NCBI GenBank assembly: GCA_913049565.1
Contig: CAJWZG010000056.1
Coordinates: forward strand, 1-12,556
Reading direction: 5' to 3'
From: an uncultured Gammaproteobacteria bacterium
GTDB lineage: Bacteria; Pseudomonadota; Gammaproteobacteria; Pseudomonadales; Azotimanducaceae_A
DNA: 12,556 nucleotides
Below are positions 6,298-12,556 of the stretch, piece by piece. A program made the position numbers and the translations under genes. Every line of letters begins with the position of its first letter. Within the stretch, counting starts at the first letter, position 1. The notes under the pieces are model-generated. The model was not told where the DNA came from, made no database searches, and saw only the letters and a program-made list of their open reading frames with translations.

Positions 6298-6328
6298 AAT
6301 ACCTCATACATCTTAATTGCTAGAGCTT

Positions 6329-7687
6329 ATGCCAGAACTACGCGACTTACCCGCCATTGAAACGTTGATGCAAAGCAAAGCTATCGCTGAGTTGATCCAA
6401 CAAAAGGGTGCGACGTCTGTAAAAACGCAGTTGCGAGAAATGCAAGCGGAAATGCGAGCATCCCGAAACGTACCGCAATGGGCAACAGCCCCTGAGGGTT
6501 ATGCCGTTGCTTTAGGCAGTGCTGAACCCAGACGCGACTACATACCAGTGTTTAACCTGACAGGTACGATAGTGCACACCAATCTCGGACGCGCATTACT
6601 CAGTAAAATGCTCTGGGAGAGTATTGAGCCACTAGTGACTCGACCGATGAACTTAGAGTACGACCTTGAAAAAGGTACCCGCGGCCAGCGGGACACTGTG
6701 GTTGAAGAGCGGTTGTGCGAGTTGATGAGCTGTGAGGCCGTAACCATCGTGAACAACGGTGCTGCTGCGCTCATGCTAGTACTCAACACCTTCGGGCTGA
6801 ATGCCGAGGTACCTGTGTCCCGGGGCGAGTTGGTCGAAATCGGAGGTAGCTTTAGGCTTCCAGAGCTAATGAGCCGCGCTGGAAGTAAATTGTTAGAAAT
6901 TGGCACCACCAATAGAACGAGAATTGACGACTTCGCCAATGTCGTCGACCGATCCTCGATGCTGCTGAAAATCCATCCAAGTAACTATCACATCGAGGGG
7001 TTTACCGAGGCAGTTGAAGGCTCAGAGCTCGCCGAACTAGGCAAGGCCCATGACATCCCTAGCTGCGTAGACCTTGGCAGCGGCAGCCTTGTCGACCTCA
7101 GCACATGGGGCTTACCCAAAGAGCCTACCCCGCAAAGTGTGCTAGCGCAGGGTATTGATCTGGTGACATTTAGTGGTGACAAGTTATTGGGCGCTGTGCA
7201 GTGCGGTATTATTGCAGGCCGCAAAAATTTGATAGAAGCCATTCATAAAAACCCAATGAAACGCGCATTACGCGTCGACAAAGTTACATTGGCAGTTCTC
7301 AACGCGACGTTGAAGCTGTATGACAATCCCGAGCAGCTAGCGAAACATCTACCGCTGCTGCGAACGTTGACGCTAACGCCCGATGCACTTAATGAGCGAG
7401 CCCAAACCATTCTTGCAAACCTGCCCCCAGCGGTGAGCGGCACTATTGTTCGGAGCGCGGCGCAGATAGGCAGCGGTGCCCTTCCCGACCAGACTATTGA
7501 TAGCGTCGCCGTCAGCCTAACCCACGCGTCTTTAAGCGCCCAAAAGCTTGCAGAACGATTACGCGCAGCGCAAACGCCTATCATTGGTCGGCTGAAAGAC
7601 GAAAGATTGCTTTTGGATATGCACGGCGCAGATCCCTTGGATGAATTGGTAGACGTACTGTGCAGCGTCGATCTGGGCAGCGCTTGA
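6329..7687 (+). CDS. selA: L-seryl-tRNA(Sec) selenium transferase (selenocysteine synthase)
   Basis: This PLP enzyme converts Ser-tRNA-Sec to Sec-tRNA-Sec using selenophosphate supplied by SelD. It has 452 residues, against about 463 in E. coli. Family motifs run in order: NLTGTIVHTNLGRALL, EYDLEKGTRGQRD, IVNNGAAALML, SRGELVEIGGSFRLPE, GTTNRT, DLGSGSLVDLS and FSGDKLLG. K285 in the last is the PLP-linking lysine (Lys295 in E. coli). The start is uncertain: TTG at 6317 is also in frame directly after a stop codon. I prefer ATG at 6329 because ATG is the commoner start and neither has a good ribosome site. It is followed after 4 bases by selB and forms an operon with it. The tRNA substrate gene lies at the right edge of the window. 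Confidence 0.97.
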   Translation: MPELRDLPAIETLMQSKAIAELIQQKGATSVKTQLREMQAEMRASRNVPQWATAPEGYAVALGSAEPRRDYIPVFNLTGTIVHTNLGRALLSKMLWESIEPLVTRPMNLEYDLEKGTRGQRDTVVEERLCELMSCEAVTIVNNGAAALMLVLNTFGLNAEVPVSRGELVEIGGSFRLPELMSRAGSKLLEIGTTNRTRIDDFANVVDRSSMLLKIHPSNYHIEGFTEAVEGSELAELGKAHDIPSCVDLGSGSLVDLSTWGLPKEPTPQSVLAQGIDLVTFSGDKLLGAVQCGIIAGRKNLIEAIHKNPMKRALRVDKVTLAVLNATLKLYDNPEQLAKHLPLLRTLTLTPDALNERAQTILANLPPAVSGTIVRSAAQIGSGALPDQTIDSVAVSLTHASLSAQKLAERLRAAQTPIIGRLKDERLLLDMHGADPLDELVDVLCSVDLGSA

Positions 7688-7691
7688 TCCT

Positions 7692-9539
7692 ATGATCATC
7701 ACGCTCGCTGGACATGTAGACCATGGTAAAACCACCTTGGTGCGTGCGCTCACCGGCGTCGATACAGATCGCTTAGCCGAAGAAAAAGCCCGCGGCCTTA
7801 CCATCGACCTGGGCTTCGCCTACACAGAGCAACTTGGATTTGTCGATGTACCCGGACACCAAAAGTTCATCCACAACATGGTTGCAGGGGTTGCTGCTGA
7901 TCAGCATGCGCTGCTTGTTATCGCCGCTGACGACGGACCGATGCCGCAGAGCCGAGAGCATCTCGAAATATTGTCTTTGATCGGTGTGAAAAGCGGCACC
8001 ATCGCCTTGACCAAATGCGACCTTGTGAGCAACGAGCGGCTTGCCAAGTGCCGTGATGAAATTACAGCACTCGTTCAAAACACGATGCTCGAGACTGCTG
8101 ATGTTTTCCAAACAAGCGTACAGGACAGCTCCAGTTACCTCGCGCTCAGTCAGCATTTGCAAGATCTAGCTGAGGAACATCAGCCCAAAAGCGACGAAGC
8201 AAGATTTCGCTTGGCCGTCGATCGCGCCTTTACCGTCAAGGGTGCTGGCGTGGTTGTAACGGGCACCGTGCACAGCGGCAGCCTGAAGTCTGAACAGCTG
8301 GTAGAGCATTTTCCGTCAGGAAAATCGCTACGCGTGCGCTCAATGCGCGTTGAGGATCAGTTGGCAGAAGAGACGAAGACTGGTGATCGCTGCGCGCTCA
8401 ACCTAGTCGGCGCTTCCTTGGATGAGGTCAAACGCGGTGACTGGATAACCGACCATGCCGTTAGCGGACATCGTTCGATCACCATACGCCTAGATCAAGC
8501 CTCCAGCTTTGCCCGGGACGTAAAACATTGGATGCCAGTACATGTCTACCACGCCACCAGTCACAGTACTGGCCGGCTAGCGCTATTCACCGATGCGCCA
8601 AACCACGAGACATGGGCTGAGATTGTCTGCGACACACCCATGGCCTGCTGCCGAGGCGATCGCGTCGTGCTGCGTGATCAAGCGCTGGACACCACCCTCG
8701 GCGGAGGAGAAGTGCTTTACCTCAATCCTTCTCAAGTGCGTCGACGCAATGCTCCCGAGCACCGCCGTATGGTCTCAGCTTATGCTGCCGTCAATGCTCA
8801 AGAGTGCTTTAAACGCGCGATGTATCAGCTCCAACTCAATCTTGAAGCGTTCCAGCAGATTTGGAATTTGCCAGACCATGCAATCCAAGCTTTGAGTGCC
8901 GAAAACGATGTCACTTCCGTAAACGACATAGCCTTAAGCGAGAAACAGTGGGCGCAGATCCAGCAAGAGTGCCTTGAGCAATTTATCCATGATGATCCCA
9001 AAGCCAACAATCTTGGCGCAGGAATAAAGGCACAGGACATCAAATCAGTACCCCAAGCACTACGCCAAAGTGCATTAGACGCCTTGCTAAAGTCAGGTGC
9101 GATCGTTCAGCAAGGTGCGCTGTACCGATTGCCTGAGCTCGAGCCTACGTTACCCGCAGAGCTGCTATCGCTCTGGGAGCAGGTCGAACCGCTACTCGAT
9201 CATATGCAAGCACCAAGCTGTGGCGATTTAGCCAAAATGCTCAACCTTAATTTGCAGCATTTAGAAAAACAGCTGATGGCGTTGTCCAAAGCAGGCAAGT
9301 TGACGTTTTTGGGCAACCATCGATTTTACCTGCCACGACGTTTAGGAGAGATTGCCAGCGTCGTAGAGGAGATGACGCAGCAAGACCCTACGGGGCAGAT
9401 GACCGTTAAATCCTTTCGTGACAAGACGGGCATAGGGCGCAATGTTGCGATAGATGTGCTTGAGTACTTTGACAGCAAGGGTTTTACCCGGCGCCAAGGC
9501 AACGAGCGGGTCGTGTTACGAGTTTTTAACGATCTTTGA
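7692..9539 (+). CDS. selB: Selenocysteine-specific translation elongation factor SelB
   Basis: This GTPase carries Sec-tRNA-Sec to the ribosome and binds the SECIS hairpin after an in-frame UGA. It has 615 residues, almost the E. coli length of 614. The GTPase motifs are GHVDHGKT (7-14), the switch region RGLTIDLGF (34-42), DVPGHQ (52-57) and TKCD (107-110). Beta-barrel domains follow, with VKGAGVVVTGT typical of domain II. From about residue 370 the C-terminal half is the set of winged-helix domains. The last of these, ending GIGRNVAIDVLEYFDSKGF, is the SECIS-binding type. The ATG is 4 bases after the selA stop and has no strong ribosome site, so translational coupling is likely. The frame is intact and no key residue is missing, so this is a working selenocysteine factor as far as sequence shows. 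Confidence 0.97.
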   Translation: MIITLAGHVDHGKTTLVRALTGVDTDRLAEEKARGLTIDLGFAYTEQLGFVDVPGHQKFIHNMVAGVAADQHALLVIAADDGPMPQSREHLEILSLIGVKSGTIALTKCDLVSNERLAKCRDEITALVQNTMLETADVFQTSVQDSSSYLALSQHLQDLAEEHQPKSDEARFRLAVDRAFTVKGAGVVVTGTVHSGSLKSEQLVEHFPSGKSLRVRSMRVEDQLAEETKTGDRCALNLVGASLDEVKRGDWITDHAVSGHRSITIRLDQASSFARDVKHWMPVHVYHATSHSTGRLALFTDAPNHETWAEIVCDTPMACCRGDRVVLRDQALDTTLGGGEVLYLNPSQVRRRNAPEHRRMVSAYAAVNAQECFKRAMYQLQLNLEAFQQIWNLPDHAIQALSAENDVTSVNDIALSEKQWAQIQQECLEQFIHDDPKANNLGAGIKAQDIKSVPQALRQSALDALLKSGAIVQQGALYRLPELEPTLPAELLSLWEQVEPLLDHMQAPSCGDLAKMLNLNLQHLEKQLMALSKAGKLTFLGNHRFYLPRRLGEIASVVEEMTQQDPTGQMTVKSFRDKTGIGRNVAIDVLEYFDSKGFTRRQGNERVVLRVFNDL

Positions 9540-9574: not shown

Positions 9575-9805
9575 TTACATTCCCCGACGGGGTCCAGACC
9601 CCAAATTCTCGTAGGTAGGATCCACGGAAGCTGCGGGGCGCTTACTGATGAGCACTTCGACGCCTCGATCAATGGATGTATCTATTGCCTGTTTTGTTGC
9701 TTTCTCTAGCGCCTGTTCAACCTGCTTGATTGCTACCGACTTGTCGCTCGTCAAACGTTGTATATTGGCTGTGTTCAGGGGCCCTACGGTGACGTTGTCT
9801 GTCAT
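9575..9805 (-). CDS. Small hypothetical protein (76 residues)
   Basis: I do not recognise this protein. The ATG at 9805 is preceded by a very strong ribosome site, AAAGGAGG, 4 bases upstream, which is the main evidence that it is a real gene. A longer in-frame start at 9850 has no ribosome site. The product is soluble, with no signal peptide or membrane segment. Residues 20-45 (DKSVAIKQVEQALEKATKQA onward) look like one long amphipathic helix. The C-terminal part, with SKRPAASVDPTYENLG, looks unstructured and ends in basic GPRRGM. It has no Cys. It runs convergent to selB with a 35-base gap and divergent from the transporter gene, so it is a single-gene unit. A link to selenium metabolism is not shown by anything except position. 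Confidence 0.7.
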   Translation of the reverse strand: MTDNVTVGPLNTANIQRLTSDKSVAIKQVEQALEKATKQAIDTSIDRGVEVLISKRPAASVDPTYENLGSGPRRGM

Positions 9806-9931
9806 ACGTCCTCCTTTGATTATCGATGGGTTAAGGTTACACCGAATCAACGAACCGACAAATACCTTTGACAGTAGGTAAAGCTGGCGGGCTTTAGCAG
9901 AACTTCTCTGACATGCAGCGTTGTATAAAAC
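9806..9931. promoter_or_regulatory. Divergent promoter region of the 76-residue gene and the GPH transporter gene
   Basis: These 126 bases must drive both divergent genes. A perfect TTGACA lies at 9868-9873 on the plus strand, but there is no good -10 at 16-18 bases. TATAAA occurs only just before the transporter ATG. The transporter start has no clear Shine-Dalgarno sequence, while the minus-strand gene has a strong one (GGAGG at 9810-9814). No confident promoter pair is visible. Confidence 0.3.
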
Positions 9932-11447: not shown

Positions 11448-12392
11448 TCACGATACCTGGCTCAGTTGCTCCAACAGATCCGCAGGGAGCGCGCTGCTAA
11501 ATGGCTTTATGCCATGCTTTTCGCGCACATCCTCCACTTTCAAATGCCAGTCCTGCTCCCACTCGATTGCCATGAAGTCAGGCGACTCGCAGCCATGCAC
11601 CCAGGCTTCGGCCAAATTTTGGAGCAACAGCGGGAAACCCAGAGGCTGCTTGAGATGACTCATCGCACACACCGTGGTGAGAAACATCGCAGAGTAGTTA
11701 TGCCCAAACTGCGCCAGTTGAAACGATGAGATCGCCATCTCGTGTAGGCTCGTCGTGCGATAACCCGCCACAAGATGCCAAGTGTCATGCATTTGCAAAA
11801 TGCGGGTGTTTAGGTAGCGCAGTGCGGGGCTAAGATTTGCTAGTCCGATCGCGTCGCGATCCAATACCTCGGGATCAAAACCGTTGTCCACCCACATGCT
11901 CAGCAGCTCTCGAGCCAAACTTCCCTCGGGGTGTTCAGCGAGTCCGGCTAGAGAAATCATTGGCGGCACAGTTTTGTGTTCCGCATTATCGGCACCAGCG
12001 TGATTCCGTGCGGCGAGTTCGCTGAGTTTCCCATAAGTCTTCTCTAGCGATGGGCCGAGCGAAGCTACCGCAACGGTAATCGACGTTGCATCGTAGCCCT
12101 CTTCGGGGCCAGTCAGCGTCTGCTCGAACTGTTTCCAAAACGTTTCCGGCAACTCTACGCTTTGCACAGACAGGTCGGCGAGCTCTACAGAATGACCAAG
12201 TTGGGCGCGGGAAATTACATCAAAGACTGTTGGAATGGCACCGGGCGCTGCAAAAGAGGCCCAAATCATTGCTCCACAAACCGCAGCTTGAGCAGCTGCA
12301 TCGCCTTGGGCGGCCTTTGGCACCTGCTCTGCAAGCGCACTAAGATCTGGATGGACGGATTGGGTTCTCAGAGTTTGCAGATTAATCGACAA
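11448..12392 (-). CDS. Coq4-family protein (ubiquinone biosynthesis)
   Basis: This is a 314-residue soluble protein. Its C-terminal half carries the Coq4 signature HDxxH-x11-E: H202, D203, H206 and E218 in MHDTWHLVAGY to LHEMA, the metal-ligand set of the family. It continues with a helical SSFQLAQFGHNYS segment and ends in EWEQDWHLKVEDVREKHGI, which resembles the Coq4 C-terminus. Coq4 proteins act in ubiquinone synthesis on the ring C1 position. The first 150 residues or so are not typical of Coq4 and are unassigned. The start is TTG at 12392: an in-frame stop lies two codons upstream, AAAAGGGG sits 7 bases upstream, and the next Met is residue 42. It is convergent with the transporter gene, 13 bases apart. 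Family assignment is from motifs, and a direct role in quinone synthesis is inferred. Confidence 0.8.
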   Translation of the reverse strand: MSINLQTLRTQSVHPDLSALAEQVPKAAQGDAAAQAAVCGAMIWASFAAPGAIPTVFDVISRAQLGHSVELADLSVQSVELPETFWKQFEQTLTGPEEGYDATSITVAVASLGPSLEKTYGKLSELAARNHAGADNAEHKTVPPMISLAGLAEHPEGSLARELLSMWVDNGFDPEVLDRDAIGLANLSPALRYLNTRILQMHDTWHLVAGYRTTSLHEMAISSFQLAQFGHNYSAMFLTTVCAMSHLKQPLGFPLLLQNLAEAWVHGCESPDFMAIEWEQDWHLKVEDVREKHGIKPFSSALPADLLEQLSQVS

Positions 12393-12501
12393 CGTTCAGC
12401 CCCTTTTGTTTTTGTTTCAGGCCAAGTATGCCTTGCTACTTAGGACAAAAAAACGGTGGGGTGACCTAGGTTCAGAGCTGGTGTGCAGACAATAACCCAC
12501 A

Positions 12502-12507
12502 TAGTAT
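12502..12507 (+). promoter_or_regulatory. Weak -10-like element of selC
   Basis: TAGTAT matches the -10 consensus at 4 of 6 bases and ends 7 bases before the tRNA 5' end, so transcription could begin at or next to the mature 5' end. A GC-rich stretch (GCGAGC) between them resembles the discriminator of stable-RNA promoters. I found no good -35 at the usual distance. Confidence 0.25.
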
Positions 12508-12514
12508 TGCGAGC

Positions 12515-12556
12515 GGAAGAGCATCGCTCCCGGTGGGGTGCGCGGCCTTCAAAGCC
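12515..12556 (+). tRNA. selC: tRNA-Sec (UCA anticodon), 5' part only, cut by window edge
   Basis: The last 42 bases fold as the 5' half of bacterial tRNA-Sec. GGAAGAGC (12515-12522) is the 5' strand of the 8-bp acceptor stem; E. coli has GGAAGATC. After AT, CGCTCC (12525-12530) pairs with GGGGTG (12535-12540) around the loop CGGT, giving the 6-bp D stem and 4-base loop peculiar to tRNA-Sec. Then come C, the anticodon stem GCGGC (12542-12546) and the loop CTTCAAA (12547-12553), identical to E. coli, with anticodon TCA at 12549-12551. GCC at the edge starts the 3' anticodon strand. The long variable arm, T arm and CCA lie outside. This RNA is the substrate of SelA and the cargo of SelB, both encoded here. 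Confidence 0.9.

Follow-up and report, generated by a model that had tools for sequence, protein, structure and literature searches.

Transfer RNAs for selenocysteine (tRNA-Sec) of the Escherichia coli type possess an 8-bp acceptor stem and a 5-bp T stem (8/5), which together form a 13-bp acceptor/T domain. To judge from the title of a 1991 paper by Baron and Bock, acceptor-stem length is reportedly the determinant for SelB or EF-Tu binding in E. coli. The portion of the Secmarker study drawn upon here (PMC5330540) states the 8/5 form for bacteria and also counts 47 tRNA-Sec from bacteria whose acceptor/T domain measures 12 bp, including those of Gammaproteobacteria with an extra nucleotide 7a and others bulged at 3a, 4a or 5a. 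In the same portion, the 7a type is assigned to several Gammaproteobacteria and Alphaproteobacteria (S2 Fig, column D), and selA and selB are described as usually located near the genes for 12-bp tRNA-Sec. The gene considered here lies at the end of a stretch of 12,556 nucleotides, analysed as a whole and referred to as the window. It shares with the E. coli type a 6-bp D stem, a 4-nt D loop and the anticodon TCA, to which its relatives add a long variable arm and G73, and it differs, as judged from these relatives, in that the acceptor is shorter by one pair and the linker longer by one base. With the 12-bp 7a type, as presented in that portion of PMC5330540, the relatives have in common a 7-bp acceptor, a T stem of 5 bp, an additional nucleotide in the linker that joins acceptor to D stem, and selA and selB nearby, whereas the window shows the 5' 42 nt alone and the form is followed here across one family-level sample. 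As far as a limited literature search goes, the structure is known but minor, and its uniformity in the family sample is a small addition.

The first 42 nt of the tRNA-Sec gene (selC) occupy positions 12515..12556 of the + strand. They comprise the 7-nt 5' strand of the acceptor (GGAAGAG), a 3-nt linker (C-A-T), a D arm with a 6-bp stem (CGCTCC/GGGGTG, including two G-T wobbles) and the 4-nt loop CGGT, a single C, and the anticodon arm as far as its third 3' base (GCGGC-CTTCAAA-GCC). The anticodon loop CTTCAAA is complete with TCA (UCA anticodon), three of the five pairs of its stem are visible, and no mutation disrupts any stem in this part. The 6-bp D stem, 4-base loop and CTTCAAA loop named in the original prediction can thus be read directly from the window. 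When the final 157 bases of the window were compared with 4227 Rfam families at a permissive threshold, a single match resulted, to tRNA-Sec (RF01852; model positions 1-43 of 91, 3' truncated, 29.6 bits, E 2.1e-4). Because this match is truncated and falls under the gathering score of 47 bits, neither ARAGORN nor an Rfam search at gathering level returned any hit in the window, just as had been foreseen for a gene finder run on the window alone. The score by itself is weak, since other sites in the genomes of three relatives, presumably ordinary tRNAs, reach 29.5-41.9 bits with the tRNA-Sec model. A meaning for the exact cut at base 42 was considered and rejected, as this position may be merely the window edge.

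Upstream, selA (L-seryl-tRNA(Sec) selenium transferase; 6317..7687, + strand; TIGR00474, 512 bits against a cut-off of 268) and selB (selenocysteine-specific elongation factor; 7692..9539, + strand; TIGR00475, 390 bits against a cut-off of 242, with the SelB winged helix PF09107) are separated by 4 bases. They are followed by a 91-aa ORF, an MFS_2 transporter gene, a divergent Coq4-domain gene (PF05019; 11448..12392, - strand) and finally the tRNA-Sec gene. The 6.2 kb from the start of selA to the window end therefore cover three of the four core selenocysteine genes, with selA and selB both over their NCBIfam cut-offs, close to the span of about 6.3 kb first proposed; no selD was found among the nine window proteins scanned. 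The window resembles the selABC neighbourhood in that selA and selB are adjacent and selC is nearby, and departs from it in that selC is located about 3 kb past selB, beyond the small ORF, the MFS gene and the divergent Coq4-like gene. For this reason selC is probably transcribed alone, as its own transcription unit. A consensus scan upstream of the window tRNA-Sec found no sigma-70 promoter.

Three related loci were obtained by scanning genome contigs with SelA: L001 and L002, from Gammaproteobacteria MAGs, and L003, from a K189A-clade assembly (G003). In the NCBI taxonomy this clade belongs to the OMG group of Gammaproteobacteria. The SelA proteins of these loci are 78-80% identical to that of the window, and all three loci keep the window order of selA, selB, small ORF, MFS gene, Coq4-like gene and tRNA-Sec. 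Each contains a complete tRNA-SeC with anticodon tca according to ARAGORN, scoring 70.6, 70.6 and 73.1 bits by Rfam against the cut-off of 47, and each agrees with the window at 41 of the 42 nt, the sole difference being base 8 (C in the window, T in the relatives). Of 150 genomes sampled around G003 at the family level and scored with stricter filters, 109 had tRNA-Sec over the cut-off; these, with G003 represented by L003, together with L001 and L002 make up the 111 loci examined. The 42 nt of the window are matched completely in three of the 111 (L027, L031 and L113) and at 41 positions in eight. The same divergent Coq4-like neighbour, with 68-77% identity by tblastn, is found at five of these 11 loci, namely L001, L002 and L003, found by selA and differing at base 8, and L031 and L113, found by tRNA-Sec and matching exactly. 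At L027, also a 42/42 match, tblastn detected no Coq4-like neighbour, and L061 gave a 28% match only. The long variable arm, the T arm and G73-CCA are present in the syntenic L001-L003 and L031, while the contig of L113 stops inside the gene. At least five of the six D-stem pairs are formed in all 107 parsed relatives, and a SelB relative lies inside the available stretch, in most cases about 1.5 kb on each side, in 49 of the 111 loci.

This identity at 42 or 41 of 42 positions, combined with the synteny of the Coq4-like gene, settles the terminal 42 nt as tRNA-Sec, in agreement with the truncated Rfam match and with the original prediction. An edge-cut tRNA gene is thereby recoverable from half a sequence plus synteny. 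Two further features recur near these genes. A short conserved stretch, CACATAGTAT (12498..12507, + strand), noticed by eye in the flanks of the relatives, is identical in L001, L002 and L003, present as close variants in L031 and L113, and absent in L027; it is a candidate -10 element. The 91-aa ORF between selB and the MFS gene (9575-9850, - strand) has no Pfam or NCBIfam match, and its product is 63-73% identical in L001-L003 and 66% in L113.

Positions 12515-12556 are, with very high confidence, considered to belong to a genuine tRNA-Sec gene on the chromosome of a gammaproteobacterium related to the K189A clade, truncated where the sequence ends; the gene most likely has the minor 12-bp form, and its Sec-tRNA would serve UGA codons by way of SelA, SelD and SelB. 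Neither the gene nor the selenocysteine locus around it is out of the ordinary, and the source organism was probably marine. Following the established pathway, the tRNA would be charged with serine, SelA would turn the seryl-tRNA into Sec-tRNA with selenophosphate from SelD, encoded elsewhere, and SelB would carry the Sec-tRNA to UGA codons in the mRNAs of selenoproteins, UGSC-family redox proteins probably among them. For the window gene, we infer its 3' half, its intactness, its expression and its role in decoding.

The 5' side seen in the window is compatible with a 7-bp acceptor and a 3-nt linker, and the 3' side is taken from the relatives, whose tRNA-Sec genes end CCTAC-CTCTTCC-GCCA (a T stem of CCTAC or similar, then CTCTTCC, then GCCA). 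In these genes, therefore, GGAAGAG alone pairs, the acceptor has 7 bp and base 8 is the extra linker base (7a). All loci but L113, which is truncated, could be parsed by a script that scores the stems, the linker and the length of the acceptor (110 of 111). In 103 of them the acceptor is a clean 7 bp and the linker has 3 nt; the remaining seven were scored as 7 bp with two mismatches and are read by eye as a 7-bp stem in which GGAAG(C)GC faces GCCTTCC with a single base bulged. The two forms appear to correspond to types 7a and 5a in the portion of PMC5330540 used here. After the 7-nt 3' strand, GCCA follows in 101 and GCCC in 2 of 107 loci, and CCA is absent in 4, the 107 being those parsed by an earlier script that missed four of the 111. 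That script gave four acceptors as '9 bp', an effect of the GC or GT upstream, which can pair in genes lacking an encoded CCA.

The alternative of a canonical 13-bp (8/5) tRNA-Sec, with an 8-bp acceptor ending GCTCTTCC, draws on the possible pairing of the 5' strand GGAAGAGC with GCTCTTCC, and on the presence of such acceptors in the same order. Of 155 genomes sampled across the order, 18 possess tRNA-Sec, with an acceptor of 7 bp in 10 and of 8 bp in 8; this sample is not independent of the family sample, because both include G003, G024, G009, G010 and G022. The D-stem frame is poor (4/6 pairs) in L152, L156 and L157, which affects their linker length and not the 8-bp acceptor call. Against this alternative, no 8-bp acceptor was scored in any of the 110 parsed genes of the near group, and L027 and L031, which have the same 42 nt as the window, both show 7 acceptor pairs and a 3-nt linker, so that an 8/5 gene in the window is regarded as very unlikely. 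The 8-base acceptor strand and the 3' strand GCTCTTCC of the original prediction are likewise improbable, because the relatives show 7-bp acceptors in which CTCTTCC follows the T stem, as is the GC expected to complete the anticodon strand, since that strand finishes GT (a G-U pair) in the five syntenic relatives. Downstream bases unable to pair with all of GGAAGAGC had been proposed as grounds for refutation, and such a rule would reject the gene wrongly. From the sequences of its relatives, the window tRNA-Sec is most likely the minor 12-bp form, with a 7-bp acceptor, a T stem of 5 bp and, in the linker, the additional base 7a. This form looks like the rule in the family sample, with 103 clean and 7 bulged acceptors among 110. 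Set beside the 13-bp forms of the order (8 of 18), the family sample offers a natural comparison for how SelB reads acceptor length.

The selC gene is well known as an island site in E. coli. In G003, a tyrosine integrase gene (PF00589) begins 149 bp past the tRNA acceptor. The last 27 nt of tRNA-Sec with CCA (TGGGTTCGACTCCTACCTCTTCCGCCA) recur exactly 13.9 kb downstream, and its last 22 nt recur at 10.5 kb, with a decayed copy (21/25) shortly after. Repeats of this kind are as expected for two stacked integrated elements, which probably occupy L131:345-14261 (contig 7 of G003), the first with the integrase and a PriCT_2/AAA_25 protein. At 105 loci the sequence extends more than 60 bases past the gene, and in most of them up to about 1.6 kb was searched; a G003-like integrase sequence follows the gene in eight of the 105, including G003. 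Contigs end within 1 kb downstream of tRNA-Sec in 23 of the 111 loci and upstream in 4, a bias with a two-sided binomial value of 3e-4 that treats the loci as independent, though they are not; within 100 bp the numbers are 8 downstream against 2 upstream (p 0.11). Integration at selC may explain the contig breaks near selC in the group, for which the downstream bias is suggestive; it is not a result for the window, on which the bias shows nothing.

Scanning viral contigs for the 27 nt identified three IMG/VR contigs (L164:954-980, L165:11783-11809 and L166:3178-3204), none of which carries the anticodon part directly before the 27 nt. An integrase-like ORF lies 133-137 bp from the 27 nt in each, assigned to Phage_integrase by Pfam in two of the three, and the site is likely attP. 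By its exact identity to the tRNA-Sec 3' end, this site beside the integrase gene points to a likely group of hosts for these phages. By tblastn, neither the integrase of G003 nor any window protein matched the three viral contigs; the integrases of these phages are therefore not close to that of G003. A search of the phage collection in distant mode with window positions 11448-12556 gave no match. All three viral contigs also possess, just before the 27 nt, an imperfect palindrome (TTTCACGTGAAAC-like) that we take to resemble parS, the site of ParB.

Use of tRNA-Sec as an integration site in this group, with its last 27 nt repeated downstream in G003 and carried without the rest of the gene by three viral contigs, lends some weight to the view that the window holds a tRNA-Sec fragment or pseudogene, for example the leftover of a mobile element, rather than a working gene. 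The element-borne copies found are 3' ends, however, and the window holds the 5' half; it also shares the upstream stretch and the chromosomal neighbour with complete genes of relatives, and its visible stems are free of breaking mutations. A fragment is accordingly thought to be highly improbable. Chance resemblance, or a tRNA of another type, would suit a window score of 29.6 bits that other sites in the relatives' genomes equal or exceed, but is given practically no credence in view of the 42/42 identity to over-cut-off genes elsewhere, two of them syntenic, and of the three syntenic genes at 41/42.

Beyond the reading of the window as a genuine chromosomal tRNA-Sec gene, a wider proposal concerning its family is held with some preference. 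A whole gammaproteobacterial family may decode UGA as selenocysteine solely with a 12-bp (7/5) tRNA-Sec of ordinary tRNA length, in which case its SelB and SelA could not use the acceptor-length rule of E. coli and would have to recognise other features, and temperate phages would have taken the 3' end of this tRNA as their attachment site.

Genes of the selenocysteine trait are divided between the window, which contains selA, selB and the 5' half of selC, and the relatives, in which alone selD and UGSC-family genes were seen. Of the three genomes retrieved with SelA, two have selD over the cut-off, in open frames of 735 and 753 aa, and in the third it is partial. In G003 the SelD ORF of 747 aa (L123:253-2496) has an N-terminal pyridine nucleotide-disulphide oxidoreductase domain fused to the AIRS domains, with no in-frame stop. 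UGSC-family genes are found in all five genomes searched (G001, G002, G003, G024 and G129; 13 matches, every one containing exactly one in-frame TGA); 14 control genomes gave no match. Five of the 13 matches, distributed amongst four of the five genomes, are over the cut-off, and the single match of G003 is under the curated cut-off. The in-frame TGA is the U of UGSC in seven of the eight loci inspected (L133-L137, L139 and L140), L138 giving no match to the script. The portion of PMC2398784 used here counts UGSC proteins among the selenoproteins that are abundant in samples from the ocean. With selD and UGSC-family genes, the relatives look like selenocysteine users, and the same trait would be expected in the window's own organism. 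Hairpins of -9 to -12 kcal/mol, computed without a shuffle control, lie 3' of the TGA in the same seven loci and are candidate SECIS elements. Searches for two classical selenoproteins gave no formate dehydrogenase alpha over the cut-off in G001-G003 and no Rdx/SelW in the five genomes, which counts against the trait. CMD/AhpD proteins gave 19 matches in all five genomes, four of them with one in-frame TGA. These four carboxymuconolactone decarboxylase-like matches, at G001:C71:5147-5275, G003:C15:39145-39267, G002:C56:14536-14706 and G129:C95:6578-6697, are possible AhpD-like selenoproteins.
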